From Neptunomonas concharum (GTDB taxonomy: Bacteria; Pseudomonadota; Gammaproteobacteria; Pseudomonadales; Balneatricaceae): DNA of 64,000 bases. The notes beneath the pieces were generated by a model. It saw nothing but the letters and a program-made list of their open reading frames with translations. It made no database searches and was not told the DNA's origin. A program made the position numbers and the translations under genes. The stretch is from NCBI RefSeq assembly GCF_008630635.1, contig NZ_CP043869.1, forward strand, positions 2,727,160-2,791,159, given 5' to 3'. This document shows, one piece after another, positions 2,571 to 20,011 of this stretch. The number at the start of each line of letters is the position of its first letter. Position 1 is the stretch's first letter.

Positions 2571-4298
2571 ATGCACCTGAGCAGTGAAATCAGATTATCC
2601 ACCGCCCAACAGAGCATTACCGGCCGCAAAGCGCGTAATGAAGACTGCTTGGGCTTTTTTATGCCTATGGGTAATCTGCTAACGACGAAAGGTGCCTGTG
2701 GTATGATCGCCGATGGTGTCAGCACAGCTGAGGCGGGAGCCGAAGCCGCTGAGTACTGCGTGCGGGAGTTTATCAATGACTATTTTGACACCCCTGACAT
2801 TTGGACCGTCAAAAAATCTGCACAAAAAGTCCTCACCTCAATCAATCGCTCACTTTACGCCAGAAGTCATGAATACCTGAGCAGCACTCGGGGGTTTGTT
2901 TGTACGTTTTCGGTACTGGTGATCAAATCTCATACCGCTCACCTTTTTCACATTGGCGATAGCCGCATCTATCGTATCCGTGGTGATCATATGGAGTGTT
3001 TGACAACCGATCATGTGACCCCTTTGAGCCAAAGCTCCAGTTGCCTCTCACGCGCAATGGGCATGGATACTCATTTGGATATTGATTACCGAAGCGTCGC
3101 CATCGAGCCTCACGATATCTTCTTACTAACGACTGATGGCGTTCACGATACGTTACAACCACGAACGATCCAGACCATTATTCATGAATCAGACTCGCTG
3201 GATGAGGCCTGTGAAACGCTAATAACTGAAGCCTACAATGCGGGCAGCACTGATAACCTAAGCTGCCAACTGATACGTGTAGATCAAGTGGTTCGAGAAA
3301 GTATTGATGACCTCACCGACAAATTAACGGCGCTTCCTTTCCCCCCTGATCTAGAGCCTGGAATGCGCATTGATGACTACGAAATCCTCTCCGAACTCTA
3401 TGCCAGCAACCGTAGCCAGCTTTATTGCGTAAAGGATTTATCTGATGGCAAAGAGTGGGTCATGAAAACCCCTTCCCAAAACTACAATGATGACCCTGCC
3501 TATATTGAGCGCTTTATCATGGAAGAGTGGGTTGGTAGTCGTATAGATAGCCCCCATGTTGTGCGTATCTGTAACTCTAACCGCCCTAAAACCTTCCTTT
3601 ACTACTTAATGCAAAAAGTAGACGGTATTACGCTGGAGCAGTGGATTGAAGAGAACCCTTACCCGAAACCGGCAGAAGCCATTAAACTGGTTAAGCAGAT
3701 CGCCAAGGGCCTAAAAGCTTTTCACCAAAGAGAAACGCTTCACCAAGACCTAAAGCCCAGCAACATTATGATTTCAAAAGAGGGGCATATCACACTTGTC
3801 GATTTTGGTTCGGTTTATGTCTCAGGTATCGACGAGATATTTGTGCCCATCGAGCGGGATAAAATTCTGGGGACCGTTAACTACTCCGACCCACTGCTAA
3901 GACTCGGCCAGAATACAGGTATTAAGGGCGATCTGTTCTCTCTAGCCTGCATAACTTATGAAATATTCACCCATCACCTGCCCTACGGAGAGGGGTTAGA
4001 GCGCTGCGAAACGCCACAGCAATTAGAGAAATTAAAATATATACCCTCCGATCGCTATAACCCCATCCTTCCTATTTGGTTTGATCGAGCACTCATGAAA
4101 GGCCTCTCCATTAGGCCCGAAGAACGTTATCAATCCATAGAACAGTTTCTGCAGGACGCGACACACCCAAATCCAAGCTTTTTACTACCTAAAAAGGAAG
4201 AGAAGCAAACTTACAATATTATTTTTTGGCAGATGATGTCGTTAGTCTGGTTTATCACCTCGATGTTCCTTATCGCCGCTCTTTGGCTACAAGATTAA
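2571..4298 (+). CDS. Bifunctional PP2C phosphatase / Ser-Thr protein kinase
   Basis: A 575-residue fusion. Residues about 1-245 are a PP2C-type phosphatase: ARNEDC, MIADGVS, HIGDSRIYR and TTDGVHD supply the metal-binding acidic residues. Residues about 265-540 are a Hanks-type kinase: VMKTP with the ATP-binding Lys, HQDLKPSN at 391-398 (catalytic loop) and DFG at 411-413. The classical HRD is HQD here, as in many bacterial kinases of this group. A single membrane segment lies at about 553-571 with almost nothing after it, so both catalytic domains should be cytoplasmic and tail-anchored. The gene lies 62 bp after nasA and is probably co-transcribed. Its target is unknown; nitrate uptake control is an inference from linkage. 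Confidence 0.85.
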   Translation: MHLSSEIRLSTAQQSITGRKARNEDCLGFFMPMGNLLTTKGACGMIADGVSTAEAGAEAAEYCVREFINDYFDTPDIWTVKKSAQKVLTSINRSLYARSHEYLSSTRGFVCTFSVLVIKSHTAHLFHIGDSRIYRIRGDHMECLTTDHVTPLSQSSSCLSRAMGMDTHLDIDYRSVAIEPHDIFLLTTDGVHDTLQPRTIQTIIHESDSLDEACETLITEAYNAGSTDNLSCQLIRVDQVVRESIDDLTDKLTALPFPPDLEPGMRIDDYEILSELYASNRSQLYCVKDLSDGKEWVMKTPSQNYNDDPAYIERFIMEEWVGSRIDSPHVVRICNSNRPKTFLYYLMQKVDGITLEQWIEENPYPKPAEAIKLVKQIAKGLKAFHQRETLHQDLKPSNIMISKEGHITLVDFGSVYVSGIDEIFVPIERDKILGTVNYSDPLLRLGQNTGIKGDLFSLACITYEIFTHHLPYGEGLERCETPQQLEKLKYIPSDRYNPILPIWFDRALMKGLSIRPEERYQSIEQFLQDATHPNPSFLLPKKEEKQTYNIIFWQMMSLVWFITSMFLIAALWLQD

Positions 4299-5285: not shown

Positions 5286-7337
5286 TTATATCTTGATGTA
5301 CGTCACTTCGAATGCTTTGCACGCCCGATACTTCTGGTTGCGATTAGCAAGCTGAAACGCATCTCCCATATCGTACTGCTGAAAGATATCGAGCCCTCGG
5401 TCTAGGGAGATTTTCCACCCTGTATCAGTAACGATATGCCTAGCATGCTGCGAACCAGTTTTATCAAAGGAATAAGCGAATTTAATGCCTACTGTGAACA
5501 TTTCACTCTGTATCTTTTCAAAGAACTCCCGTTGTTGATCCCCTTTGAACTCATCCTCAACGGTCACTAAGCTCACTACCACCTCATCTTCTTCTACTTT
5601 TCCTTTAACGATAGTTTCGAGCAATTCCATCAGGTTACGCGCTTGGAAAAAGAGACGGATATAAGGGTCAGTAATGGTGATGTGTTTTGCACCCTGTAAA
5701 TAGGGTGAGAACAGGTCGTCATAAGAAACGCCCCGCTGATTTTCAGAAAAGGTAAGATGCCCTTCTATAGGCTGTTTTTCCTCTACAATTTTTGCTTCAG
5801 CCGATGAAGTATCAGATGCCTCCTTTTCGGGCTGTAATTCATGAAGGCTGACGTCGTCACTTGAAACTGTCTTGTGGAAGTAATTTGGGTATTCAAGTTC
5901 TTCTAACGTAGCGATGGGCTTTTCTTTACCCGATTTATCAGAATAAGCGAAATTGACATCAGCATACGTCGTATCAATTCTGAATAACTGATCTTTAACC
6001 CGCTTCCTGCCTTCCATTGCGAACTTCAAAATTTCTTCGATTTCTTCTGCCGTTGCTCCGCCTTGCGGGAAAAGAATTTTCATCAACCCTGAAAACGTTT
6101 TGTTGATAGCATCCCGGTCACGAGTTGATATGTTTGATGAAAGTGTAAAGTACTCTTTATATTGATCTGAATAATCTTGGTTACGAAGGTGGCGCAGAAT
6201 TTCAGCCAAATAATCCACGACAAAACCGTAGCCATTCGAGAACATTTCGCCACGGATAATATCCACTTCCCAGCCCGGAATATAAAAATGTAAGCGGTCA
6301 AGAAAGGCGGAGTCGTAGAACTTCTCTGGCAGTGCATCAAACAAATCTGAATGTTTGAGCATATACGGGAGGCTGTGCTCTGTGTTACCCACAAACACCA
6401 TGGAAGCATCAGCACCCAAGGTTTCAACACCACGAGAGAATGACTTGTTTGCCATGTAGTTCTTCATGATATCGACAAGGGCTTTATCGACCTTTTTCTG
6501 CTTGCCAGCAAACTCATCGAAAGCCACGGTATCCCAATAGCCAACCAAGCCGATCTTTCCAGAAGAGTTGTTGACGAATAACTTTGGCACACTCACTTCA
6601 CCGCCCGAAAGCAAAATGCCGTGCGGGGAGAATTCAGAGTATATATGAGACTTACCCGTACCTTTTGGTCCCAGCTCAATAAGGTTGTAGTTTCGTTCAC
6701 AAAACGGAATGAGCCTGACCAACTGAGTCAGCTTGCTACGCTTGCCAAAGTACCCTGGGTTAAAGCCAATGCTCTGGACGAGCACGTCAATCCATTCATC
6801 TAAGGAAAATTGACTACGCGCTTCTATGTAGCTGTCATAGTCGAAATGAGACATCTGGATCGGCTTGATCGTGCTTAGTATCCACGGGCTCGCGTCTTTG
6901 TCTTCAGTATGTTCATACTCAATATCGGCGATAACCCATACACCACCTACCAATAGTTTGGGATGCTGTTTTACTGTTCCAGAATCGATTAGAACTTTCT
7001 TTATGCATAGATTTGCGAATTGGGTTTCATAGCAATCTTTCTTGTCATTCAAGGCGACGCTAACTTTATCGATAACCTTGTGGCGGCCTTTCTCTCGAAT
7101 AGTCGATCGGATCAGCCCCGCTTCATTCCTATGTACGTAGTGTTTAGCTAGGATTTCTTTTACCGTTTGGATGCCGCTTTCAATACTGTCTTCATCATTC
7201 GTTGCGCAATACTGACCAAGCAAATATTCCAGAACATAAGAAGGGACTATTGCATTACCTTTTACGGTTTTAACCAAATCTTTGCGCACCACTAAGCCCG
7301 CAAATACATCGCATATTTTTTGGTTTAAGCCTGTCAT
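5286..7337 (-). CDS. brxL: BREX type 1 BrxL, Lon-like ATPase
   Basis: 683 residues, the usual length of type 1 BrxL. A Walker A motif GPKGTGKS lies at 223-230 and a Walker B-like VAFDEFA at 271-277. The C-terminal third (after about 530) resembles the Lon-type protease fold, with VSLVTVEDEFKGD as its beta core. BrxL is an AAA+ DNA-interacting protein needed for BREX phage exclusion in some systems. The gene is the last of the operon, 54 bp after pglZ, with a GAGGAAAAAG box before the ATG. It appears intact, with no terminator between it and the converging DUF454 gene. Confidence 0.93.
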   Translation of the reverse strand: MTGLNQKICDVFAGLVVRKDLVKTVKGNAIVPSYVLEYLLGQYCATNDEDSIESGIQTVKEILAKHYVHRNEAGLIRSTIREKGRHKVIDKVSVALNDKKDCYETQFANLCIKKVLIDSGTVKQHPKLLVGGVWVIADIEYEHTEDKDASPWILSTIKPIQMSHFDYDSYIEARSQFSLDEWIDVLVQSIGFNPGYFGKRSKLTQLVRLIPFCERNYNLIELGPKGTGKSHIYSEFSPHGILLSGGEVSVPKLFVNNSSGKIGLVGYWDTVAFDEFAGKQKKVDKALVDIMKNYMANKSFSRGVETLGADASMVFVGNTEHSLPYMLKHSDLFDALPEKFYDSAFLDRLHFYIPGWEVDIIRGEMFSNGYGFVVDYLAEILRHLRNQDYSDQYKEYFTLSSNISTRDRDAINKTFSGLMKILFPQGGATAEEIEEILKFAMEGRKRVKDQLFRIDTTYADVNFAYSDKSGKEKPIATLEELEYPNYFHKTVSSDDVSLHELQPEKEASDTSSAEAKIVEEKQPIEGHLTFSENQRGVSYDDLFSPYLQGAKHITITDPYIRLFFQARNLMELLETIVKGKVEEDEVVVSLVTVEDEFKGDQQREFFEKIQSEMFTVGIKFAYSFDKTGSQHARHIVTDTGWKISLDRGLDIFQQYDMGDAFQLANRNQKYRACKAFEVTYIKI

Positions 7338-7391
7338 TCTTTTTCCTCAGAAGTTCCGTCTTCTAGTTTGTTTAGTTCTGCCAACTCACCA

Positions 7392-9944
7392 TTAAAAATC
7401 AAAATCACTCGTAAACGAACGCCGAATGGTATAGCGCAGCTCTTTGTATTTTCGATATTGGTTTGAGCCTTCCTCTGGCTCTTCTAGCTTAAGTAACACT
7501 TGTTGATTGTTCGCCGCGTCGGCTTCTTGCGTGAGCACAAATCGTAGCTTCAGTTCACGCTCTCGTGGGTTTTCCGAAGTTAAATCAAGTAATACGTCAT
7601 GCTTATCAGAAATAAGCGTACCGCTCTCGGTATAAATACCTGCCTTAAACTGTCTGGGGCGAATTTTGTCTGTCACAGGTTCGGTCTGATACAACGTAAC
7701 TGAAAGCTGGCCAGAAGTAATGACATTAGTGCCACCGCGCAATATATCCACTTCAACATAGGTCAGATCGCTCTGACGCTTCTTGTTGATTGATATCACC
7801 GGGATAATCACTTCTTGCAACGAAGCACCACCGTGCACAAAGCGGCTACCAGAACCACTTAAACGCAGTCGTTGGATACCTTTCGGAATAACAGCGTGAA
7901 CATCACCGGATAAGCCCAGTTGTTCGGCAGTAAATGACTTCAAAGACTGGCCACAACTCAGACTTTTGCCTAATACAAAACGCCTATCGTTATACAGCAC
8001 CTCGCCTTTGACATCGTTTGCCAAAAAGTCACTGTCTTCTAAAGGTTTGTTCTGATAGATAAAGCCATGGTCCGCAGTTATCAGCAGGTTGTTTACATTG
8101 GCATTTGCGAGTTTTTTAATGAGCTTCATTAGATCATCAAAGGTTTTTTCTACCGCCTCAAAGGCCTCACCTTCGGACTGCATTTTGTCGCCAGTGTGAT
8201 CGATGCGATTGTGATAGATATAAACCACATCGTGCGCTTTGATGAGTTCACGGCTTTCAGCAATGGTCATCTCTAGCACTTGCTTGGCTTGCACCGCACC
8301 CGCACGCTCAACTAGCGCCGACTTAAGTACCTTGTCGCGATTCTCCGTGCCCTGTGTAGTCTGGGCTCCTGCGCTCACCGTCCCCGATTTATTATCAGCG
8401 ATATTCAGCAAGGCGTCACCCTGTGGTAAAAGTGAGGCCATGCCAAGTTGCGTATAGCTTGGCAGAGAAGAAAGCGCATGCTCTAGTTTGGCTTGGTAAC
8501 GATCTTCTTGGCGTACACGACCAACCATCTCTTCACCCGCCTCATAACGGAAGGCATCGGAGATAATCACACAAATCTTGTTGTTCTTATCTAAATAGGG
8601 TTTTACCCATTTACTGAAGAACTGGTTTTGAGACGTCACATCAGGTACTTGCCATTTTGTCATGCCATCCACATGGGTTTGCCACGCATTATTCAGCGGC
8701 AGCACATAGCGGTTGGTATAAAGATTTTCAATCTTCTCGCTGAGTGAATTAAGCAAGGTGTTCTGAGAAGACGCTTTAAGGCAATAGATATACTGGCGAT
8801 AGAGCTGATCCAGCTTATACCAGTGGCTAACATAGCCCTGAACAGCTTCACTCGATGTCGCCATATCAAGCGCAATAGCATCCAACAGGGCAAAGAATTG
8901 GCTGGCAATATCGACAGCTTCATAAAGAAATTTAAACTCGCCAAACCAGTGACCTTGGCGTCTGCCACGGCACCACAATGTTACTTCACCCTCTGACAAG
9001 GTTCGCTGCTCGACAGCCTTCACCAGCTCATAGATCACCTTTTTATCAATCAAACGGAAGTAATCTAGCTCGATGACCTCTTTTAGATTTCGCTTGTTTA
9101 GGTCTTCTTCGACCGCTAGTAACTCAGCGTAATTATCCGATAGCGCTTCGAACACCTCTTGGTGTGTACGGCTGTCTTTCCAGCGTTTAAAAAACACTAA
9201 GGCATCACTGGATAGATTAATGCCATCGCCATTGAGTGACGAGTTTACGCCCATAGAATAGCAAGACTTAAATAGCTCAATCGCAAAGTCTTTTACCGTG
9301 GGCTGCTTACTGGTATAGCCATAAAAACGCTCTACTTGCTGCCACAAAAAGCCATCTAATTCACAACGCTGTATCAATCCGAACAGCGCCTGCTTTGGTT
9401 TTACCAACTCCGCCAACAAAGCTTCAAGTATTACATCAATACGCGCATCAGCCAGTTGAGTAGCATCAACGCACACAGCCAGCATTTTTAACCGCACTTT
9501 ACTGAGAGTATCCTCATTATTGAGTAGCTTTTTAAGCGTAACTTTCCGTTTTTCCGCTTGTACCTTAGCCTTTGCGGTATCAAAAAAAGCGGTATGCTTT
9601 TCTACAATTTCAGTAAACTCATTTGGTAACTCAAGTTCACTTAGCCAAATCGCTACCTGATCGGTTCTAAAGGTCGTGTTCGCCAGCTCAACATCTAACA
9701 GCCAGTTCTGTAGAGGCTCTGGCTGCTTACCTTCTTTGTAAACCAAGAAGGATTGTTTTGGTGCCTCACGCAGCAGTTTGTGTTTAATGCCAAATTCGTT
9801 ATTCTGAATTTCCAGCTTTTCAACGCCCTCCATAGCAAGGGCTTCAAAAGCATCGCGCAGCTCTTGCTTATCGTCATACCAGAACACGATACGGTGCTTT
9901 TGAAATAAACGACTGATGGCTTGTTGAATACGGTTTTCAGTCAT
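7392..9944 (-). CDS. pglZ: BREX type 1 PglZ, alkaline-phosphatase-superfamily protein
   Basis: 850 residues, the type 1 (PglZA) size. The alkaline phosphatase superfamily core is in the middle: VIISDAFRYEAGEE, with the metal-binding and nucleophile region, then YIYHNRIDHTGDK, then LLITADHGFIYQ, which give Asp and His metal ligands. The N-terminal half is helical and the last 150 residues are beta-rich. PglZ is a core BREX component required for both methylation and phage exclusion. Its start overlaps the end of the DUF1016 gene by 8 bp, so the two are translationally coupled, and no strong Shine-Dalgarno box is seen. Confidence 0.94.
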   Translation of the reverse strand: MTENRIQQAISRLFQKHRIVFWYDDKQELRDAFEALAMEGVEKLEIQNNEFGIKHKLLREAPKQSFLVYKEGKQPEPLQNWLLDVELANTTFRTDQVAIWLSELELPNEFTEIVEKHTAFFDTAKAKVQAEKRKVTLKKLLNNEDTLSKVRLKMLAVCVDATQLADARIDVILEALLAELVKPKQALFGLIQRCELDGFLWQQVERFYGYTSKQPTVKDFAIELFKSCYSMGVNSSLNGDGINLSSDALVFFKRWKDSRTHQEVFEALSDNYAELLAVEEDLNKRNLKEVIELDYFRLIDKKVIYELVKAVEQRTLSEGEVTLWCRGRRQGHWFGEFKFLYEAVDIASQFFALLDAIALDMATSSEAVQGYVSHWYKLDQLYRQYIYCLKASSQNTLLNSLSEKIENLYTNRYVLPLNNAWQTHVDGMTKWQVPDVTSQNQFFSKWVKPYLDKNNKICVIISDAFRYEAGEEMVGRVRQEDRYQAKLEHALSSLPSYTQLGMASLLPQGDALLNIADNKSGTVSAGAQTTQGTENRDKVLKSALVERAGAVQAKQVLEMTIAESRELIKAHDVVYIYHNRIDHTGDKMQSEGEAFEAVEKTFDDLMKLIKKLANANVNNLLITADHGFIYQNKPLEDSDFLANDVKGEVLYNDRRFVLGKSLSCGQSLKSFTAEQLGLSGDVHAVIPKGIQRLRLSGSGSRFVHGGASLQEVIIPVISINKKRQSDLTYVEVDILRGGTNVITSGQLSVTLYQTEPVTDKIRPRQFKAGIYTESGTLISDKHDVLLDLTSENPRERELKLRFVLTQEADAANNQQVLLKLEEPEEGSNQYRKYKELRYTIRRSFTSDFDF

Positions 9945-10983
9945 TATTCAGCCCTAGCTCTCGCTCAATACGTTCAATACTTGGCAGCTGATCTTCTAAA
10001 TCGGCTGGCAGCGACTGGGCTAACTGATACTCGGCAATACCAATGGGTTTACTGTTGTCGCGCAAGGCGTATTCCGCAACCACCTTGTTGCGCGTTTTAC
10101 ACAACAATAAACCAATGGTTGGGGCATCGGCATCGGTTTTTACTTGGCTATCTACCGCCGACAAATAAAAGTTTAACTGGCCAGTATGCTCAGGTTTAAA
10201 GGCACCCGCCTTTAGCTCAATAACAATGTAGCAGCGCAGTTTTAGGTGATAAAAAAGAAGGTCGATGTAAAAGTCATCGCCCGCCACCTCAAGATGCACC
10301 TGCTTGCCTACAAATGCAAAGCCGGCACCCAACTCCAATAAAAACTGGCTAATGTGTTGCGTTAAGGCACGTTCAATATCGCGCTCTTTCGATTCAGCAC
10401 CAAGGGATAAAAAATCAAATATATACGGGTCTTTTAAGGTTTGTTGCGCTAATTCTGATGTAGCCTCAGGCAACGACACTTTAAAATTAGTGGTTGCCGC
10501 CCCTTGGCGTGTGAGCAGATTGGATTCAATATGGTGCACCAATACATTGCGTGACCAGCCGTGCTCTATGGCTTGCGTAGCATAAGCCAAACGTTGTTCG
10601 GTATCTTTTATTTTACTGAGCAAGGCTAAATTGTGCCCCCAAGGCAATTGTCCAACAGCCTGTTGGACAATTGCATCTTGATTTAAATCAGGCCAAGCAT
10701 CAGCAAAAGCACGCATATGCATTAGGTTTGCGCGAGAAAAACCTTTCAACTCAGGAAACGCCCGCTTTAAATCCTGCGCCAACTGCTTAACCACCTTCGC
10801 GCCCCAGCCTTGCGCTTGTTGTTGAGTTAAAATTTCATGGCCTATATGCCAATACAATTGTACCAATTCACGATTAACAGCTAAGGCCGCACCGCTTTGC
10901 GCTCCCTGAATACGCGTTTTTAAATCCGCAAGCCAGGGCGCGTAGCCGTTGGGCATAGTGGGGGTTTGAGTATTTTTCACCAT
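9937..10983 (-). CDS. DUF1016 (YhcG) family PD-(D/E)XK nuclease within the BREX operon
   Basis: 348 residues. The N-terminal half is the YhcG helical domain (LYWHIGHEI, GWGAKVVKQLAQDL, QLPWGHN). The C-terminal domain at about 215-330 holds the nuclease core: DFYIDLLFYH, then YIVIELKAG, giving D...ExK, then GQLNFYLSAVD. The start is the ATG at 10983, which overlaps the pglX stop in a TGATG; a longer TTG start is possible. The end overlaps pglZ by 8 bp. Such coupling means it is made with the BREX core proteins. YhcG proteins occur as accessories of restriction-type loci, but DNA cleavage here is not shown. By eye its base composition is richer in G+C than the middle of pglX. Confidence 0.88.
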   Translation of the reverse strand: MVKNTQTPTMPNGYAPWLADLKTRIQGAQSGAALAVNRELVQLYWHIGHEILTQQQAQGWGAKVVKQLAQDLKRAFPELKGFSRANLMHMRAFADAWPDLNQDAIVQQAVGQLPWGHNLALLSKIKDTEQRLAYATQAIEHGWSRNVLVHHIESNLLTRQGAATTNFKVSLPEATSELAQQTLKDPYIFDFLSLGAESKERDIERALTQHISQFLLELGAGFAFVGKQVHLEVAGDDFYIDLLFYHLKLRCYIVIELKAGAFKPEHTGQLNFYLSAVDSQVKTDADAPTIGLLLCKTRNKVVAEYALRDNSKPIGIAEYQLAQSLPADLEDQLPSIERIERELGLNND

Positions 10984-13900
10984 CAACTCAACCCCGCAAT
11001 TTTCTTAAGTGCCTTGCCAAATTTTGGGTAGTTGGCTTTTACGCCATCATCCAAATCAATCTCAATATTTTGGCCAGCCAAGGGGTAGAGAATATCGCGC
11101 TCGTAGTCATTCACCTCATCCAAGACTTTCTTGATTTTATCGATAGCCTTAATCGCTTGCGTTTTTTCTTTCGGGCTACTCGAGCCGCTTATTTCAACTT
11201 GCTCGTAGCTTTCTTTACGCGCTTGCAGCTTCGTGCGGAATTCTCGGAGATAGTCGTTTAATACAACGCTTACGGTATCGGAGCGATAGCGATGCATATA
11301 GATCAAGGCATTAAAGGTGCCTTTGGGGCTAGAAAAGAGCCAATAGATTGGACGTTTTTTATAACGTTTTACGTGGTCGGCATAGAAGTCTTTAACGAAG
11401 TACTTCTTGATGTCTTTTCCGATGGCTTCTTCGACAAAAACTAAGTTATCAACGAAGTGCTCTTCGCCGAAGGTGACTTTTAGAAATTCTTTAAAGCGTT
11501 CGCTGATATCATCTTCGAACCAGTCGCCTTCGAAGTCGATCATTGGGGTGACATTATCTTCATCCGGCATATATTTTAGCCTGGGGCAGTGTTCCATAAA
11601 TTCTTTTAGAGTTTTCGACCTATCAGCAATAACAAGTCCTTCCCCATCAAGGGAATAACGCCCATGCATACAACCAACGGAATAAGATATGAAATCTCTA
11701 ATCGCATCACCCTTAAGCATTTTCTCCTTCTTTACACTTTCCTTGGACGCACTGTACTTAAATTCAGGGTTAATATTCAGAGTAATTTCATCTAACGAGA
11801 CCTCAGCCGAAACCTCTTCTTCAACGTCATAGGCGTTAATAAATCTTGTATTGATGTCTACTTCGAGCTGCTGCAATTCAACAACCAACGCCTCCCATGA
11901 TTCCTTACAGCATTTATATGCTTTCGCTATCGAATCATTTTCCTCGGCATATTCAAGAAGTGGGTTCTTTCTAAAGTCCATTGACAACTCAAAGCAATCC
12001 CAGTCAATCTTGGAGATTTCGACACAGCGTTTAACCTGCGACACGACATTAACCGACTCAAACGGTATGCTTTTCACTATTCCGGGACTGACATTCATAG
12101 TGGGATTAAGAAGTCTCACAAACAGCTCTGACAATTTTGTGTTAAGAAAACCTAACAAAGAATAGTCAACTTGCGCAGACTCGCTGCGACTAAATATTGC
12201 CAAGCCCGCAGTGTTAAACGAAAGTCCTTCTGGGTAGTATCGAAACCCACTTTTATCGGAAGTTATCTTACTCCAGCCGATCATTTCTCTAAAAAAGTAA
12301 TCGACCCCATCGTTTCTAAACCCCGGCAATTTCTTCATGTTAACAACATTGTTCTCACCATACTTAAGGACATATTCTATGTTGCCGTACCATTTTCTAA
12401 ATTCACCACCTTTGTTGTGCGGTGAAAAATACTCTTGCTCATCTTTGCACCCAAAATAAATTCTTGAATACCCAACCTCGTGCCAATAGAACAAATATTT
12501 TTCATTATCTCCGGTCGTCAACCCAGACTTAACCTCATAACCTGTCCCTATTAATTCTTTCTCTTTAAAAGAACTCACCAACCTACTACTAATCCAGTAA
12601 GCTATAGGGCAGCCACTAATTACACGAAACTTTTCTGAAGAGGTTGTGTAAAACCAACTACAGTTTTGATCGCGCAAGGCCTGTAACAGCAATCGTGCTT
12701 TTTCTGCTTCTGACTTCCCATCAACTAAACGAACAAAGTGGCCTTTACGCTGCGGATTACTCCCTTTCTCTAAGACATACGCAGTAGTTGAGACCACCTC
12801 ACCACCAATGCTATCAAATGCCCTTGCACCCAGATGACACATAGAGGTAATAGTTGCCATTCTTAGTAACTTATGACGCAACCTTTCAAACGATGATAAA
12901 AACATCCAGCTCTGCATATTTATCATTGCTGAAAACCCTTTATTGACCGTCAAACCAATATCGCGCTCTATGAACATTGCGAATAGGTCTGACTTACTAT
13001 CGGGGAAATTATCTTTTGCCCACTTAGCCAATCTAGGATTCATACCCTTTCCACCCATGTAGGGAGGATTAGCGACAACTACATTATATTTCTGAGACAG
13101 GTAATCAGCCTGATCTATAGCTCGTAAAACGCGTTTGTGAATTTCTGCCAAAAACAACTGTCCCGAAACATCTTTTGCATCTAAATCAGCTCTTACATCC
13201 TCAGCATACTTTAAGGTTGGTTGAATTAAAGAGCCAAAATTGTCAGCCTCTTCAAATTCTTTTAAGGTAGTTCGCAAGTCTTGGGTAAACAGGTCTCGAC
13301 CGACAAACTCAATATATTCATTCAGCTCATCGCTGTTGAAGGCAATACTTTCTATGCGACAAACATTGGGTTTGATTGGGTTACGGAAGAAACGGCGACG
13401 ATTATTACTGTCATCATTCGGATTACCCTTGAGCGCCTTCATGGACAGCGCAAATGCGGCCAGTTCTGCGGCGCGTTCATCGATTTCTATGCCGTATAGA
13501 TTCTTAGTGAGTATTAGCTCTGGGATATCAACGGGATCGTAACCAGCATCCAGATAGATAGAGTAAAGCAAGTCGTAGGCATAGGTCAGCATATGACCTG
13601 AACCACAGGCTGGGTCGCAGACTTTGATCTCTTCAGGGCTGGTGATCTTAAGATAGTCAGACTCTTCTTCAACGGGCTTTATGTAATACTCCATCTGCTC
13701 AATGACTTTTGAGCTTGGATTATTCAACATCCACAAGCGGCCTAATGAATTCTCAACCAGATAACGTACAATCCAGTGCGGGGTGAATAGCTGTGTAGCC
13801 GCTGGGATGTTCTCGGGTGTGATCTTTTTGTTTTTCTTTAACCCTTCAAAAACCTGATCTTTTTTCTCTGAGATATAGAACTGATAAAGCCAACCGATAC

Positions 13901-14486
13901 ATTCAACAGATTCACAGGCTTCTGGCGTCATTGCCTCGCGGGTGTAGGCAAGTATGGAGTTGCCCGACAACAAGTCATCAGGCATTAGCAATTCTGTGTA
14001 GTCTTCAATGCGCTCGAAGAGGTATGGCATGATGCGGTGGTAATCATTACAGACCGAGACAATCAGTAAGCGATAGGCTTCTGATTGCCCATCTCGACTT
14101 TTTATAGAGCCATTCAAGAGACCAAAGATTTTCTCTCTAGATGAATCATTGACCACACCCTCATCAATATGACCTGCTTTGGCTTCTGCCAGTATTTCTG
14201 GCTGGAACTGCCCTTCTGCGGGAGACAACACACCTATACGGTTATAACCATTCACATCCATAAAACGAAGCGCACAAAAGCGGTTGAACCAGACGTATGC
14301 CACCTGCTCAATCAGTTGTTCTTTGCCTTTTTGCTTTAATCCACCCTCTAGCTTTGCGACAACCTTGGGAAGCTCACGGCGCTCCGAGCTTTCCTCTTTT
14401 AGTACCTGCGCAAGCTTGCTACCCACCTGTTCAATGAGGCTTCTACGGGCAAATTGTGCGAATTTTTTGAGTTTTGAGGTTTCCAT
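10983..14486 (-). CDS. pglX: BREX type 1 PglX, adenine-specific DNA methyltransferase
   Basis: 1167 residues. The SAM-binding motif DPACGSGHM lies at 291-299 and the catalytic NPPY at 473-476, the arrangement of N6-adenine methyltransferases. About 290 helical residues precede them, and a long target-recognition and C-terminal region follows (roughly 600-1167). PglX methylates a non-palindromic site on the host chromosome so that BREX can tell self from phage DNA. It starts within the brxC stop codon (TAATG at 14486) and ends within the start of the DUF1016 gene, so it is coupled on both sides. I saw no long homopolymer tract that would suggest phase variation, and no frameshift. Confidence 0.95.
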   Translation of the reverse strand: METSKLKKFAQFARRSLIEQVGSKLAQVLKEESSERRELPKVVAKLEGGLKQKGKEQLIEQVAYVWFNRFCALRFMDVNGYNRIGVLSPAEGQFQPEILAEAKAGHIDEGVVNDSSREKIFGLLNGSIKSRDGQSEAYRLLIVSVCNDYHRIMPYLFERIEDYTELLMPDDLLSGNSILAYTREAMTPEACESVECIGWLYQFYISEKKDQVFEGLKKNKKITPENIPAATQLFTPHWIVRYLVENSLGRLWMLNNPSSKVIEQMEYYIKPVEEESDYLKITSPEEIKVCDPACGSGHMLTYAYDLLYSIYLDAGYDPVDIPELILTKNLYGIEIDERAAELAAFALSMKALKGNPNDDSNNRRRFFRNPIKPNVCRIESIAFNSDELNEYIEFVGRDLFTQDLRTTLKEFEEADNFGSLIQPTLKYAEDVRADLDAKDVSGQLFLAEIHKRVLRAIDQADYLSQKYNVVVANPPYMGGKGMNPRLAKWAKDNFPDSKSDLFAMFIERDIGLTVNKGFSAMINMQSWMFLSSFERLRHKLLRMATITSMCHLGARAFDSIGGEVVSTTAYVLEKGSNPQRKGHFVRLVDGKSEAEKARLLLQALRDQNCSWFYTTSSEKFRVISGCPIAYWISSRLVSSFKEKELIGTGYEVKSGLTTGDNEKYLFYWHEVGYSRIYFGCKDEQEYFSPHNKGGEFRKWYGNIEYVLKYGENNVVNMKKLPGFRNDGVDYFFREMIGWSKITSDKSGFRYYPEGLSFNTAGLAIFSRSESAQVDYSLLGFLNTKLSELFVRLLNPTMNVSPGIVKSIPFESVNVVSQVKRCVEISKIDWDCFELSMDFRKNPLLEYAEENDSIAKAYKCCKESWEALVVELQQLEVDINTRFINAYDVEEEVSAEVSLDEITLNINPEFKYSASKESVKKEKMLKGDAIRDFISYSVGCMHGRYSLDGEGLVIADRSKTLKEFMEHCPRLKYMPDEDNVTPMIDFEGDWFEDDISERFKEFLKVTFGEEHFVDNLVFVEEAIGKDIKKYFVKDFYADHVKRYKKRPIYWLFSSPKGTFNALIYMHRYRSDTVSVVLNDYLREFRTKLQARKESYEQVEISGSSSPKEKTQAIKAIDKIKKVLDEVNDYERDILYPLAGQNIEIDLDDGVKANYPKFGKALKKIAGLS

Positions 14487-17400
14487 TACAACTGCACCTT
14501 CTTACCTTGCTTAATTTCTTCCACCAAAGCATCGCGGTATTTAGCAAGATATTCATCGATATCGGCTTCGTCGGCTAGCCAAGGCTTGCGGAAGTTAACT
14601 TGGATATTTTTTGCAGATACTGTTGCTGGTTTGAACTGCTTCTCTACTGCTGGCTTTGAATCAACCTTATTCTCAGTTGACTCCGGAGACTGCCCCTCGC
14701 TTGGTGATTTAGGCTCAACACTTTCAACTGGGCCAGCGAGTTTCTCGGATTCCGGCTGGTTCCACTCCATAAGTTGTTGTACAAGAGAGGCGTAACGTTG
14801 ATCTTCAAAGCGGCGAGCTTCATCGCGAATCATCGCAATCAGGGACTGTCTCGTAACTTTAGATTCAACCTCATCAAAAGCAGCTCTTAACGTGGCCTGC
14901 TTATCCGCCTCTAACTTTTGAAATTCCCCGTAGCCCAGCAACTTGGCTTTTAGCGCTTCAATTACGGTTTGTGCTTGGTTGCGCTCAGCGTCAATCTGGG
15001 TTTCAATTTTCTGTTGAAGTGCCGCACAATCTGCTTTGAGTTGCTGAACGGCAGAGCCCTTATAAATAGTTGGATCAACCAAGGCCTCTCTCAGGCTTTG
15101 GGGTTCGTCGCCTTTGACATATTCCAGATTGGGCTTTTGATCTTCGAGTAGCTTTCTTGCCTCATCGAAACTTTCTTTATTTGGCCCTTTCATGAATTTC
15201 AAAATTGGGTCAATGGTCTTCTCTTTATAGTCAAACCACTTGTCTTCTTGCGAGGCTAGCTCGGACATGAACCATGTATATGGCTTAGATTTCAGCTCTT
15301 GCAACTCGGATACAATAGGGCTTAAGGCGCGTAAAAATGGATACTGTGTCGCCTGCGCCAAACGCTTGTCTAATTCAATTGCCTGCTCAGCAAAGCCTTC
15401 TTGAACCTCTTTCGCTAGCGCCTTCACTTCGGTTGCATGTGCGACTTTTTCAAAGTAGTCGTTATAGAATTCTTTTACCTTACGAATCTGTGACTGACTA
15501 AATTCAACCTGCGGATCAAGAATCAAGTTTCCGTGTGAAGCAGTATTTCTAAGCGCCCGCGATAGCTCTGCGTCATCCAGTAAGTTGGTGGATTCTCGAA
15601 CTTCAATCTTGGCTCTGCCGCACAAGTGCGCCAGCGTGCATAGCACGGCTGCGAATGACCAGCCATAAGGTTTAGATTCAAACTTTTGAAGCAGGCTTTT
15701 AACCGTAGTGCGTATGCCCCCACGATTATTGCTCTGAATAAACGACAGCATCTCTTGTTGCGGCTCAGGCAACTGTGTTTCCTCACCGAATAAGCCTTGC
15801 TCGGCTTGAGTGAGAATTTCCGCTATTTGAGCTTCACTGTATTGCGCGCTGCGCAGCATTTTTAGATTTGGGTATGTGTGCTTAATTAGCTCACCAAAAG
15901 CCCTTATCATTTTACTTTGGCCGTCTTCACCGCTCAGCTCCAGCTCTTGCCCTGCAACAAAATACTTTGCTGTTCCCACTAGCTTGGAACTCAACTGCTT
16001 TAGCTGATTGAGCCTCTCAGTATTCTGGGAGCCTTTTTCAGCGAGAATTCGCTTTATGCTGTCTTGTTGAGTGGTTCTTGTCTCATGGGCAACATATTTC
16101 TCAGTTTGCTTATACAAGATCAGGTCTCGAACCAGCCTCTCACTTTCTGGCAGGACGATACGCAGTTCATCATTAAAGACAGTATCTGACTTGTGCTTTT
16201 CAAAAGCATCACGATGATCATGAAATGAAGTGATCACGTTGATCGCTAATTCGTATTCACGGCCACTTAGATTGTCATCAAGCCGCTTGGTAAAGGGGTA
16301 GTCTTGGCCGTTTTCATCCCAACGAATTTTTCGCGTTTTCAGTACACCATCGTAAATCAGCTTTTCCAGCTCTGACGCTACAGCAGCATTGTCTACCTCA
16401 GTATTCTTGATTTCCTGCTCTACATCTTGCTCTTCATCCGTCAGGTATTCGAAAAAGTCGCCATTACGTTGAATATATGTCTCTTTCTCAAGAATATTTA
16501 AAGCCTCTTCTACTTGCAGTTTGAGAGACGGGATATCGCGCTCGAAACTATCATGCATTAATACGCAGAGATTTCGAATAGTTGGCTTAAATTCCTTGAT
16601 GTATTTCACAAGGAACAACGCTTTTAATAGCCGAATAGCGAATTGATTATCGAGATTCTGCTCGGCTTTTAGAATGGACTGCTGGGTCGCGGTTTTTAAT
16701 GCCGTTCGAATTCCTTCAAACATTAAATCAAACGTCGCTAGCTCTCCTAACTTATGACTTTTGATTGCGATAGCAACTTGTTGGAAGACACCCAGCATAG
16801 AGCGTTCACCCACCGAGCTGTGCTTCCCTTCAAATGCACTGTGAGTTGACAAGTTTTGTATAGCCGATTGAAACAACGTGAATTGATAGGGCACAAAGGG
16901 GTAGCACTGAATAAAGTGCTCACGATCTCGATAGTTTCGGTAGGTTGCCGAGCCATCAGCAAAATCAAACAAGGTTTTAAAGTTATTTTCTTGCTGGTGG
17001 AACAAATCACTGAGCTGCTCGATATACTCTTCACGCTTCTCAAGCAAACGTAGTTGAATGACTTCTGCTACGTCTTGGCTCGTTAACTTCATTCTGTTTT
17101 TAAAGCGGGCTTGGATTTTGGTGAAGTCATTGCTCTGCTGCTTGCTAGTTTCACCCACCACCGACGACATATCTTCTTGTGCTGTTACGATGATCCATGC
17201 CTGACCATGGCATTTAGTCGCCAAGCTTTCAGCAACCGTTTGCAAGTTGGTCATGAGTTTGACGTTATCGGCGATGTATTGACCAACCTCATCAACAAAG
17301 AAGTTCAGCCTGAACTCTGGCTCTTTATTATCGATATAAACTTTTACTTGATCGGCAAAATCTTCGATTGATAGTCGATAGTCTTGACGGTACTTATCCA

Positions 17401-18058
17401 ATATCCTTGTGACAGATTGGCCGGATACTTCCGAATAGGCACTATCTACGGAGTCTGCCATTCGCTTGGCACGGGCTCGGCCTTTATCCCAATCCATACC
17501 ACTGACATTCTGGAATGCACTTTTAAATGCCTCAAAATGGCCGTCTGCATCCAGTTCTCGCTCGAACTGGGCGATATAAGCCTGCTTTCCGTAGTAACCG
17601 CAGTGTTCATCAAATACTTTTACAAACACTGCAATTAAGGCATCAATTTCAGTTTTACTGATGACGTCTGCCTTTTGGTCGATGTTGAAGAGAATACTTT
17701 CAGAAGGAATTGAGACCGCACGCTTTAGGTCGTTCGCAAATATGCCCCCTTCATTGAGCGGTTGTTTCTCTAGGAATATATCTAGAGGCGCAATGTCTTC
17801 GATAGGCTTGTTTTCCAATAGCAAAGCGAGCATTTTCAGTAAATGGGATTTACCAGAACCAAAGAAGCCTGATACCCAAACACCGTTAGCACCTTGGTAG
17901 TTAAGGTAGGCATCAAGAAATAAATCAAGTCGCTTAGCGACTTCGTTAGTTATGACATATTCATCAAGCTCGACATAGAGTGAAACGTCATCATCAGCTT
18001 TGATTACACCCTCGATAGGGCGGTCTACAGCTTTTACGAATAGGTTTTCTAATTGCAT
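14486..18058 (-). CDS. brxC: BREX type 1 BrxC, large P-loop ATPase
   Basis: 1190 residues, typical for BrxC (DUF6079/PglY-like). Walker A GFFGSGKS lies at 64-71, followed by HLLKMLALLLEN. LNFFVDEVGQYIADN at about 255 is the Walker B region, and WIIVTAQEDM follows as a sensor-like strand. The C-terminal half is largely helical, with Glu/Gln-rich coiled-coil stretches (about 860-1110) and a Pro/Ser/Glu-rich linker before the last 50 residues. BrxC is an essential core protein of BREX. It lies 37 bp after brxB and shares its stop with the start of pglX. Intact. Confidence 0.95.
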   Translation of the reverse strand: MQLENLFVKAVDRPIEGVIKADDDVSLYVELDEYVITNEVAKRLDLFLDAYLNYQGANGVWVSGFFGSGKSHLLKMLALLLENKPIEDIAPLDIFLEKQPLNEGGIFANDLKRAVSIPSESILFNIDQKADVISKTEIDALIAVFVKVFDEHCGYYGKQAYIAQFERELDADGHFEAFKSAFQNVSGMDWDKGRARAKRMADSVDSAYSEVSGQSVTRILDKYRQDYRLSIEDFADQVKVYIDNKEPEFRLNFFVDEVGQYIADNVKLMTNLQTVAESLATKCHGQAWIIVTAQEDMSSVVGETSKQQSNDFTKIQARFKNRMKLTSQDVAEVIQLRLLEKREEYIEQLSDLFHQQENNFKTLFDFADGSATYRNYRDREHFIQCYPFVPYQFTLFQSAIQNLSTHSAFEGKHSSVGERSMLGVFQQVAIAIKSHKLGELATFDLMFEGIRTALKTATQQSILKAEQNLDNQFAIRLLKALFLVKYIKEFKPTIRNLCVLMHDSFERDIPSLKLQVEEALNILEKETYIQRNGDFFEYLTDEEQDVEQEIKNTEVDNAAVASELEKLIYDGVLKTRKIRWDENGQDYPFTKRLDDNLSGREYELAINVITSFHDHRDAFEKHKSDTVFNDELRIVLPESERLVRDLILYKQTEKYVAHETRTTQQDSIKRILAEKGSQNTERLNQLKQLSSKLVGTAKYFVAGQELELSGEDGQSKMIRAFGELIKHTYPNLKMLRSAQYSEAQIAEILTQAEQGLFGEETQLPEPQQEMLSFIQSNNRGGIRTTVKSLLQKFESKPYGWSFAAVLCTLAHLCGRAKIEVRESTNLLDDAELSRALRNTASHGNLILDPQVEFSQSQIRKVKEFYNDYFEKVAHATEVKALAKEVQEGFAEQAIELDKRLAQATQYPFLRALSPIVSELQELKSKPYTWFMSELASQEDKWFDYKEKTIDPILKFMKGPNKESFDEARKLLEDQKPNLEYVKGDEPQSLREALVDPTIYKGSAVQQLKADCAALQQKIETQIDAERNQAQTVIEALKAKLLGYGEFQKLEADKQATLRAAFDEVESKVTRQSLIAMIRDEARRFEDQRYASLVQQLMEWNQPESEKLAGPVESVEPKSPSEGQSPESTENKVDSKPAVEKQFKPATVSAKNIQVNFRKPWLADEADIDEYLAKYRDALVEEIKQGKKVQL

Positions 18059-18095
18059 ATTTATCCCTTACCACCTATTTAGAGTCGCTCTACGC

Positions 18096-18719
18096 TTATA
18101 TTGCACGGTCTAGTATATTGAACGCCCTGTAATACTTGTCATCTTGCAAACTCCCAAACAAAACTAAGGATGCCCCACTTTCCAACGAATGCTGGTACTC
18201 TCCCGGAAAAAACATTAACGTTGGTTTATCTTTCGCTGTTTTTTGCAAGTTATTTAAAATGTTATGTGACCTTATATAGGGGAATACCTCTCCTATACCT
18301 GTTAGCAGCATTAAGTCATGTTTTTCATCTGCCACTCTTTTCGCTATTTCCGGCGTTATGACGGTTTCAATATCTAGAATGCCTTGAAGCTCTTCTTTTA
18401 GCTCTTCTCTGGACATCTTCTGCTCATTTTCTAATATCCAATCCCAGTCGCCTTCACGCTTCAATAATTCAACCACTAAGTCATACAGGTTTATTTCCAG
18501 CGTTTTTATCTTTTTATCCTCAAGGTCATTGCGAAGTTGTTTTGTTAATTGCGTTATATCTTTCTGAATAGATGGCTCATAAGGACAGATATGAAAAGGG
18601 ACTTCATTGTTCAAGCCCTCATTATTCAAAAACGCGTCACTAGAGATGACCTTCATAAGATGCTCTTGGCATTCCTGAAGATTCCTAGTGTTTATCGTTG
18701 TGTGCTTTAATTTTTTCAT
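18096..18719 (-). CDS. brxB: BREX BrxB (DUF1788)
   Basis: 207 residues with the DUF1788 layout: a helical N-terminus, PFHICPYEPSIQKDITQL near residue 43, INLYDLVVELL near 75, LLTGIGEVFPYIRSHNIL near 137 and a final PTLMFFPGEYQ...LFGSLQDDKYYRAFNI. It is a small core BREX protein of incompletely known role. It sits between brxA (46 bp) and brxC (37 bp) in the same orientation. The family match rests on recognition of the motif order plus location. Confidence 0.92.
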   Translation of the reverse strand: MKKLKHTTINTRNLQECQEHLMKVISSDAFLNNEGLNNEVPFHICPYEPSIQKDITQLTKQLRNDLEDKKIKTLEINLYDLVVELLKREGDWDWILENEQKMSREELKEELQGILDIETVITPEIAKRVADEKHDLMLLTGIGEVFPYIRSHNILNNLQKTAKDKPTLMFFPGEYQHSLESGASLVLFGSLQDDKYYRAFNILDRAI

Positions 18720-18765
18720 CGCGCTTTCTTATTCATATCCGCAGCCCAATTTACAATCATTGCTC

Positions 18766-19353
18766 TTAACCATTGCCGAGAAAGAGTCTTAAATCACCAG
18801 ATGCTTTACCAATCACTTGGCACAACTGCTCATTGAATATTTGATGCATTAATTCATTCCCATCCCCAACAAAACCGCACTCACGCAGCATTTTAAAAAC
18901 CACTTGCCGCGCCTTTGCTTTTGTTTGTCGCGAGGCTGAATCCAAATTATCGTGCCACTCAGCCTTCGCATTAAAAAATGCATCATAGTCTTCATGAGTC
19001 AACAAAAACCGTGCTGAGTCATATTGGGGAACGATGACCTCAATGGTAAAGTCATAAATAAATTGGTATTGGCGGCAAATAGCCAACCAAACTAAAGCCT
19101 TTTTCTGTGCTTCAGTACCAGTAGCCAGTAGATTTAACTGATCATCAGTTAGGTGCTTCAGCCTTCTAGAAACTTCTCCATAGAGCTTTTTCAAGGTACT
19201 CTCAGTACGTGACTGAAAGCTATTTTCAGCCATTACTCTGGATCGAACTTCAGGCCAGCCCTGAAGCTCTGCATACAAACTAGCCACTAGCACTGATTCA
19301 TGCATCAGCGCCGCGCCAGTTGTGAAACTAAGAGTATATTTTGCTCCGCTCAC
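18766..19353 (-). CDS. brxA: BREX BrxA (DUF1819), GTG start
   Basis: 195 residues. The opening YTLSFTTGAALMHESVLVA is the usual N-terminus of BrxA, which favours the GTG at 19353 over an internal ATG. A GAGG box lies about 11 bases upstream. BrxA is a small helical, DNA-binding component of BREX. Later marks are RQYQFIYDFTIEVI and ARQVVFKMLRECGF. It follows the HTH gene by 33 bp, so that gene leads the operon. Confidence 0.93.
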   Translation of the reverse strand: MSGAKYTLSFTTGAALMHESVLVASLYAELQGWPEVRSRVMAENSFQSRTESTLKKLYGEVSRRLKHLTDDQLNLLATGTEAQKKALVWLAICRQYQFIYDFTIEVIVPQYDSARFLLTHEDYDAFFNAKAEWHDNLDSASRQTKAKARQVVFKMLRECGFVGDGNELMHQIFNEQLCQVIGKASGDLRLFLGNG

Positions 19354-19386
19354 TATTTATTAAACCTCAAACATACCGACATCTGG

Positions 19387-19575
19387 CTAGTTTTTAACCT
19401 TCTGTTCTTCTATCCACTTTTCTACATCCTCCTTCTTAAAGCGCCAACTACCACCCACTTTAAAACCGGGGAGCTTACCTTCTGAGGCCAAACGATATGC
19501 GGTTTTCTCAGCGAGCTTCAGGTATTCAGCTACTTCTTTTAAGGTCAAGATTTCATCACTCATAACATCATCCAC
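19387..19575 (-). CDS. Excisionase/AlpA-like winged-helix DNA-binding protein at the head of the BREX operon
   Basis: 62 residues, or 58 if the second ATG at 19563 is used; the spacing of a GTGGA stretch slightly favours the latter. LTLKEVAEYLKLAEKTAYRLASEG, then a basic KVGGSWRFKKEDVEKWI, is the MerR/excisionase-type HTH (helix_turn_helix_17 group). It is the first gene of the BREX operon, 33 bp before brxA, where many BREX loci carry a WYL-domain BrxR regulator instead. A transcriptional role in BREX is inference; a leftover excisionase of a mobile element is the alternative. Confidence 0.8.
   Translation of the reverse strand: MDDVMSDEILTLKEVAEYLKLAEKTAYRLASEGKLPGFKVGGSWRFKKEDVEKWIEEQKVKN

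Positions 19576-19934: not shown

Positions 19935-20011
<77 letters not shown>

Follow-up and report, generated by a model that had tools for sequence, protein, structure and literature searches.

A DUF1016/YhcG nuclease gene between pglX and pglZ of a BREX-1 operon: probable interchangeable cargo with a conserved internal palindrome

Introduction

Does a nuclease gene that lies within a bacteriophage exclusion (BREX) operon belong to the BREX system? The question is raised by a stretch of 64,000 nucleotides from Neptunomonas concharum (contig NZ_CP043869.1; the whole stretch is hereafter the window), in which a type 1 BREX operon carries a DUF1016/YhcG-type nuclease gene between pglX and pglZ, a position that is called the slot below. 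The first-pass annotation of this DNA regarded the nuclease as a working part of the defence system. Comparison with related loci points elsewhere, that is, the slot nuclease is probably interchangeable, swappable cargo. In addition, its gene contains a palindrome that is almost certainly real and conserved, and the palindrome in DUF1016/YhcG genes is the new and testable part.

The presence of nucleases in BREX is no longer a new idea, because PglZ has been reported as a nuclease contributing to defence (PMC11974810), and PD-(D/E)XK restriction endonucleases, stand-alone or fused, have been described as the most prevalent class of embedded BREX nucleases (Rakesh and Krishnan 2026, PMC12839542). 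The novelty once claimed for this locus, a cleavage step added to a system thought not to degrade DNA, has been overtaken by these two papers. The second reads retention of such genes as functional integration, whereas in the present loci the slot nuclease varies from locus to locus; neither YhcG nor DUF1016 is mentioned in its main text. YhcG (COG4804) was predicted to be a nuclease in 2005, with an E-D-E(I/L/V)K motif (PMC1189080), and no function for it was found in the literature searched. Among the PMC matches listed, DUF1016 is nowhere described as a BREX gene and no palindrome is described in DUF1016/YhcG; subscription papers and supplements lay outside that search.

Results

DUF1016 is an irregular occupant of the slot

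The slot was compared in close BREX-1 loci, defined by a PglZ identity of at least 34% (n = 22, including the window), and in 18 distant ones. DUF1016 occupies it in 4 of the 22 close loci (the window, L094, L098 and L150), where other cargo accounts for 2 and the slot is empty in 16, and in 0 of the 18 distant loci; the loci were partly picked by similarity, so these fractions are not population rates. The comparison includes one contig that lacks pglX (L205) and one locus with an incomplete pglX (L118). It excludes L158, where a Klebsiella plasmid carries a fragment of PglZ and no BREX operon is annotated, and three further plasmid matches (H109, H110 and H116) also lie outside it.

Genome searches give a similarly sparse association. 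PglZ is matched at E 1e-80 in 11 of 398 Pseudomonadota genomes and YhcG_C exceeds its cut-off in 53, counts which assume that one same set of 398 genomes served both searches; only the window's own genome has both, and the 10 other PglZ-bearing genomes give no YhcG_C match. Among 369 genomes of the same class, DUF1016 adjoins one of the five other PglX copies above the cut-off. Four relatives carry both genes on different contigs (in G056 both lie near contig ends and may yet be linked), and the viral contigs yielded neither a PglZ match nor a match to DUF1016 of the L150 type. The counts for close loci, distant loci, PglZ-bearing genomes and PglX copies lead us to reject DUF1016 as a steady component of BREX. 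The first-pass annotation had looked to just such a count of DUF1016 between pglX and pglZ, and its expectation is borne out in one respect, as three lineages of the gene are found there in one sub-group, but not in the other, as the occurrence is rare and patchy.

The other contents of the slot are diverse. In close loci they are GmrSD (L104), an ATPase with a small partner (L096) and, beside DUF1016 itself, Shedu (L094 and L098); in distant loci they are an ATPase pair (L102) and TrlF with an RNA-binding protein (L116). The BREX locus of Salmonella StySA holds an ATPase and a DUF4435 gene between pglX and pglZ, which are dispensable for methylation (PMC9009780), and it differs from the window in its cargo genes. 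A separate observation concerns the other end of the operon: on two Methylomonas plasmids a DNA repair exonuclease and a YhaN-family gene lie directly downstream of brxL (L150:16795-21512 and L098:11743-16465), and an SbcCD-like pair is found near the BREX locus of Rhodovulum (L099).

The overlap with pglZ is a property of the site

The junctions of the nuclease gene are as the first-pass annotation described them. The pglX and DUF1016 genes are joined by TGATG (GAGTTGATGG), with one base common to TGA and ATG, and DUF1016 overlaps pglZ by 8 bp (junction AATGACTGAA, overlap letters ATGACTGA); the brxC/pglX junction is TAATG. The conclusion drawn from this coupling, a working part and not a passenger, does not hold, since the same 8-bp overlap joins pglX to pglZ in seven cargo-free relatives (L099, L100, L108, L115, L154, L155 and L157), where the gap is -8 with no gene between. 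The overlap sequence is again ATGACTGA in five of the seven. As the overlap occurs without cargo, it goes with whichever gene precedes pglZ. Moreover, the pglZ start supplies the stop codon for the upstream frame and therefore the overlap belongs to the site more than to DUF1016. As proof of a dedicated BREX part, it is ruled out by these seven loci.

The slot copies of DUF1016 fall into separate lineages

The nearest relatives of the window's DUF1016 protein lie outside BREX, and many adjoin other site-specific DNA methyltransferase systems. The 80 nearest loci encode proteins of 62-74% identity and, within the stretches examined, some of them short, none has BREX genes. Type I restriction-modification (RM) genes are neighbours in 28, an MmeI-like cassette in 15 and neither in 37; an alternative classification of the same 80 gives 27 type I, 2 with HsdR only, 14 MmeI-like and 37 with none. 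The 2005 study of this same family noted a Methanosarcina copy that adjoins type I RM (PMC1189080). It reported no obvious general gene association and, in the portion available, mentions no palindrome, whereas many of the present loci have RM-type neighbours.

Phylogenies place the slot copies in three lineages. On the DUF1016 tree, from which 14 loci of the "other" class were removed at random, the window's copy clusters with L002, L003 and L008, and L003 adjoins hsdM/hsdS. The second lineage comprises L094 and L098, in which Shedu follows in the slot; their close relative L191 has no BREX match in 19 kb. The third is L150, at about 33% identity. A single clade for the four BREX copies is rejected by approximately unbiased (AU) tests (p-AU 1e-63, and 1e-7 without L150), which removes a single BREX-borne DUF1016 lineage from consideration. 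In the PglZ phylogeny the window is sister to L093 (support 100/100), whose slot is empty, and one clade of DUF1016-bearing loci is again rejected. The regular presence and the co-inheritance with pglX and pglZ that would be expected of a dedicated component are thus seen neither in the slot counts nor in the two trees.

The MmeI-like neighbours form a recurrent four-gene cassette, found in 15 of the 80 nearest loci (L012, L021, L027, L042, L066, L159 and others; 4191-11344 in L159). It encodes an MmeI-like methyltransferase with a target recognition domain, DUF1016, a DEAD/DEAH helicase of about 690-700 residues and a GIY-YIG protein. The helicase is annotated as such in L159, and the L012 copy has no Pfam match. 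This cassette may be a separate defence system.

A palindrome inside the DUF1016 gene

The palindrome of the window's gene has arms of 15 bp around a centre of 1 nt and was first flagged by a terminator scan. Just one other inverted repeat in the 64 kb has arms of at least 11 with a loop of up to 8. For the counts that follow, identical sequences were removed; the two genome collections used overlap in part. The longest perfect arm in a DUF1016 gene is 10.8 on average (120 unique genes), compared with 6.5 after synonymous shuffling. It reaches 11 in 59 of these genes, and at least one of ten shuffles does so in 11 genes. Arms of at least 11 occur in 32 of 64 DUF1016 genes as against 3 of 249 length-matched open reading frames (ORFs) of the same loci, and arms of at least 9 within nt 180-560 in 104 of 131 as against 29 of 683 other ORFs.

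The palindrome keeps a register with the protein. In the register centred 18 nt upstream of a conserved W codon, the 109 genes with 55% identity or more pair at 83%, the 9 genes of 40-55% at 53% and the 12 genes below 40% at 58%; one of the 131 genes was dropped because its aligned column held neither W nor F. Other registers pair at 5-40%, except for a half-integer register (centre 10, which fewer pairs fit) that reaches 53% in the first group. The amino acid sequence does not account for the whole of this effect. With the protein held fixed and codons varied synonymously, pairing is 0.903 observed against 0.478 in the control, where the maximum of 200 draws is 0.52 (98 segments); in the two smaller groups the observed values are 0.574 and 0.611, and the control maxima 0.509 and 0.472, respectively.

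The two arms also change together. In 86 selected segments the covariation score is 0.326, compared with at most 0.052 for slid registers, and 135 cells are doubly changed, compared with 41.5 in shuffles (0 of 500 as high). The 33 segments outside this first count include ten divergent genes, the majority of them poorly paired in this register, and the count was therefore repeated on all 119 distinct segments. Here, 79% of cells are paired; shuffles give 63% and slid registers 22-33%. The doubly changed cells number 177, compared with 57.9 in shuffles (again 0 of 500 as high). A silent Val site, for example, is tied to a Gly/Ala site, as GTC with GGA in 41 and GTG with GCA in 52 of 98 segments. 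Such cell counts weigh related sequences more than once, which is met in part by a tree built without the palindrome codons, on which a minimum of 59 changes of pair type is counted (for the 110 segments that form 8 or more of the 12 pairs). Judged from these alignments, it is the symmetry that is conserved, more than the sequence.

Distribution of the palindrome

The palindrome is found in DUF1016 genes of every setting: 3 of 4 in BREX, 36 of 41 beside type I RM, 14 of 16 in MmeI-like loci and 47 of 59 elsewhere. It is therefore a feature of the gene, not of BREX, and what all of these settings share as a partner is either YhcG or a host enzyme of general function. The yhcG gene of Escherichia coli has 15-bp arms. 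Divergent forms use other letters and keep the symmetry, with arms of 13 bp on a Hymenobacter plasmid (L207) and in L094, 12 bp on a Spirosoma plasmid (L208) and 14 bp in L195 and L218; in L094, L207 and L214 an insert separates the palindrome from the W motif. The core pattern occurs once per locus in the 77 loci where it is found. A search for further genomic copies within 3 mismatches led to one other place only (2 mismatches), in a 3-kb stretch that has no significant match to the YhcG query.

Two other gene types have comparable repeats. RhuM genes contain an internal palindrome at about nt 175-220, with arms of at least 9 in 8 of 12; L227 and L233 were skipped, as their match coordinates and scores are identical to those of L226 and L232, and three rows are partial genes. 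Examples are L063:7919-8971, L035:295-639, L230 and L232. Two Bro-N genes, and an ORF of similar length without family assignment, have arms of 11-13 at nt 186-198 (L016:6812-7663, L020:11714-12571 and L050:10370-11221).

The Rickettsia palindromic elements, which PMC4316617 names, are likewise palindromes within protein-coding genes. They are selfish inserts and measure about 100-150 nt, whereas the DUF1016 palindrome spans about 27-35 nt and keeps to one fixed place in one family.

The DUF1016/YhcG protein

The protein matches DUF1016_N (146.7 bits, cut-off 32.8) and YhcG_C (219.5 bits, cut-off 32.5), both above their gathering cut-offs, and is encoded by a single-copy gene in this genome. 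The PD-(D/E)XK YhcG-type gene reported by the first-pass annotation is confirmed and is intact, with the catalytic residues D241, E256 and K258 in place, as are Q269 and Y273. All 42 aligned DUF1016 sequences have E256 and K258, and 41 of them have D241. Of 40 more diverse relatives, all have K258 and 39 have D241; residue 256 is E in 35 of them and D in the other 5.

One structure model predicts an alpha-beta core. Its mean predicted local distance difference test score (pLDDT) is 64.9 and that of the other model 55.9, values that rule out a confident fold. A structure search gave no match at E 0.001 or better; its weak matches include PD-(D/E)XK nucleases (2vld and Cas4). No relative of solved structure is found by sequence at E 1.

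The BREX operon and its setting

The operon is a complete type 1 BREX, as had been claimed: brxA-brxB-brxC-pglX-DUF1016-pglZ-brxL are intact and in canonical order on the minus strand (Table 1). PglX scores 1374 bits to its family model (cut-off 500) and PglZ 881 bits (cut-off 270). The end of the operon was stated as 19575 because a small HTH_17 gene sits upstream of brxA; its product is a possible regulator. Like the type 1 systems of E. coli HS, Acinetobacter and Salmonella StySA, the window has the six core genes in canonical order with a BREX-1 PglX and a type A PglZ. Unlike them, it has DUF1016 between pglX and pglZ and a BrxL with a C-terminus that resembles phospholipase D (PLD) or HKD domains.

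Within this C-terminus, residues 631-638 of BrxL read HARHIVTD, an HxRx4D motif. This is the HRD form of the BrxL-HKD variant according to PMC12839542, where the variant is recorded in 1030 of 2913 taxa. On the strength of this domain and motif, the BREX-1 system of the window is assigned to the BrxL-HKD sub-group and may therefore hold three nucleases (PglZ, BrxL and DUF1016).

Table 1. Positions of the BREX genes and associated features in the window
Feature	Coordinates	Strand	Remarks
HTH_17 (excisionase-like) small protein, 58 aa	19387..19563	-	Pfam PF12728, E 3e-20; upstream of brxA
brxA	18766..19353	-	GTG start; BREX-1 family match
brxB	18096..18719	-	BREX-1 family match
brxC, 1190 aa	14486..18058	-	NF033441
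pglX, BREX-1 adenine methyltransferase, 1167 aa	10983..14486	-	NF033452
DUF1016/YhcG PD-(D/E)XK nuclease, 348 aa, pglX-pglZ slot	9937..10983	-	PF17761, PF06250
Intragenic palindrome GCAATTGTCCAACAG-G-CTGTTGGACAATTGC	10644..10674	.	Inside DUF1016 gene, codons for AIVQQAVGQLP
DUF1016 stop/pglZ start overlap, 8 bp, ATGACTGA	9937..9944	-	
pglZ type A, 850 aa	7392..9944	-	TIGR02687
brxL with C-terminal PLD-like domain	5286..7337	-	MIT_C (PLD-like), residues 536-682
tRNA-Met, island edge	19935..20011	-	

Stretches from 5 of 7 other genomes of the genus were examined and none has a BREX match; all five retain motB and one to four nearby tRNA-Met copies. With BREX absent from these stretches, the operon looks like a lineage-specific island. 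Elsewhere in the window, a PP2C phosphatase-protein kinase fusion adjoins a major facilitator superfamily (MFS) transporter (2571-4298 and 1036-2508) and matches PD-T4-6 in PADLOC. The MFS neighbour suggests transport control more than defence.

Discussion

What the nuclease may do

The cargo reading rests on slot contents that differ among relatives, on three DUF1016 lineages and on nearest kin outside BREX. The protein itself could be an auxiliary or back-up DNA nuclease, a prediction we put forward tentatively. The enzyme (D241, E256-x-K258) would act beside PglZ and the BrxL-HKD domain, triggered by a block of the main system or by phage DNA that is sensed as unmethylated. Taken as a whole, the explanation that joins a cargo nuclease in the BREX-1 slot to self-control through the palindrome is the one we favour, with some reserve. 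The slot data do not all point one way. Within one small sub-group, three separate lineages occupy the same slot, a pattern that suggests a functional fit and disfavours a random passenger; in addition, a single capture followed by replacement in place is a possible alternative history.

The earlier view was that DUF1016 is a dedicated effector, recruited by PglX/PglZ to cut unmethylated phage DNA. Its position in the operon, the short overlaps and the intact active site speak for this, as do the use of one slot by three lineages and the like arrangement, complete with 8-bp overlap, on the Methylomonas plasmid L150. We nevertheless consider it improbable, given that the overlap is present without cargo, that the association is rare, that the BREX locus with the closest PglZ (L093) has an empty slot and that the nearest DUF1016 kin live outside BREX. 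A PARIS-like guard or back-up device is another, less than likely, alternative, by analogy: here DUF1016 would fire when DNA mimics of the Ocr type block the methyltransferase system, causing broad DNA damage. Consistent with a guard, Ocr inhibits BREX (PMC7261183), DUF1016 is found with type I RM, MmeI-like systems and BREX alike, and other loci have an ATPase with a small partner, PARIS-like by arrangement only, either in the slot or at the brxC-pglX junction. Yet no sensor ATPase adjoins DUF1016 in the window, and 37 of the 80 nearest DUF1016 loci have no identified partner system.

What the palindrome may do

No single function for the palindrome reaches more than a low likelihood. A DNA-level self-control site is the leading guess and is offered as such. 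The symmetric or cruciform-prone sequence would be read by the YhcG protein itself or by host enzymes, and this reading would limit expression of a dangerous nuclease. The YhcG nuclease domain was likened in 2005 to Holliday-junction resolvases of the YraN type (PMC1189080), a likeness that would fit a cruciform at the palindrome. In a narrower form, which we think improbable, the palindrome would be the cognate site or substrate of the encoded nuclease, a self-target by which the nuclease is kept in check or the gene is marked.

Several observations weigh against these proposals. The BREX copy in L150 lacks the palindrome (7-bp arms), it is absent or short in L206 too, and only 4 of 11 DUF1016 copies on viral contigs have arms of at least 9. 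The register was picked on the window's gene and tested on other genes, and the 48% pairing in the synonymous control means that part of the symmetry follows the protein motif. The number of pairs changed on both sides separates little: 10 against 8.0 in the 86 selected segments (32 of 500 shuffles as high) and, in all 119, 13 such pairs where shuffles average 9.5 (2 of 500 as high) and slides give 9-14, which makes the measure non-discriminating. Template switching at hairpins could maintain the symmetry of arms without selection. Finally, the RhuM and Bro-N palindromes argue against a site read only by YhcG; their likeness favours a general mechanism, be it a hairpin brake, a mobility site or upkeep by template switching.

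Each of these general mechanisms meets difficulties of its own. Maintenance by mutation, in which one arm is repeatedly copied onto the other through template switching at the hairpin, would explain why few arm versions recur with frequent switches (12 at pair 7) and why long perfect arms are common. It is rather unlikely, as the same codon register is kept across subfamilies of about 30-36% identity, the E. coli and Bacteroidota copies carry the palindrome, and such repeats are rare in length-matched neighbouring ORFs. An mRNA hairpin, acting as an RNase III target or translation brake, is supported by RNA folds of four genes (z-scores -3.6 to -6.5) and seems to us improbable. In the 109 well-paired of the 119 segments, the mismatches are 17 G.T, 18 A.C and 88 other; the equal frequency of G.T and A.C gives no sign of G-U tolerance on the coding strand, in a test that is weak because coding limits mismatches. 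Least probable is that the palindrome serves stand-alone genes for recombination or mobility; the RhuM, Bro-N and unassigned-ORF palindromes are in its favour, and the single occurrence of the core pattern in each of the 77 loci is against it. Two other candidates were discarded. The terminator scan had flagged the strand opposite the gene at a mid-gene position, which in our reading rules out an operon terminator, and the only Rfam match is to a microRNA below threshold (21.7 bits, cut-off 68).

Implications

For BREX, a nuclease within the operon need not be a part of the system, and cargo can be told from core by slot contents, overlaps and trees. The cargo-free sister loci are ready controls for the study of BREX cargo. 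For YhcG, the covarying palindrome provides a concrete and cheap test. If the palindrome is a real site, a class of elements in coding sequences has escaped notice, because annotation handles genes and sites separately; if it is a self-target, the similar palindromes of RhuM and Bro-N genes would extend it to a widespread kind of intragenic DNA element among mobile genes of defence islands.

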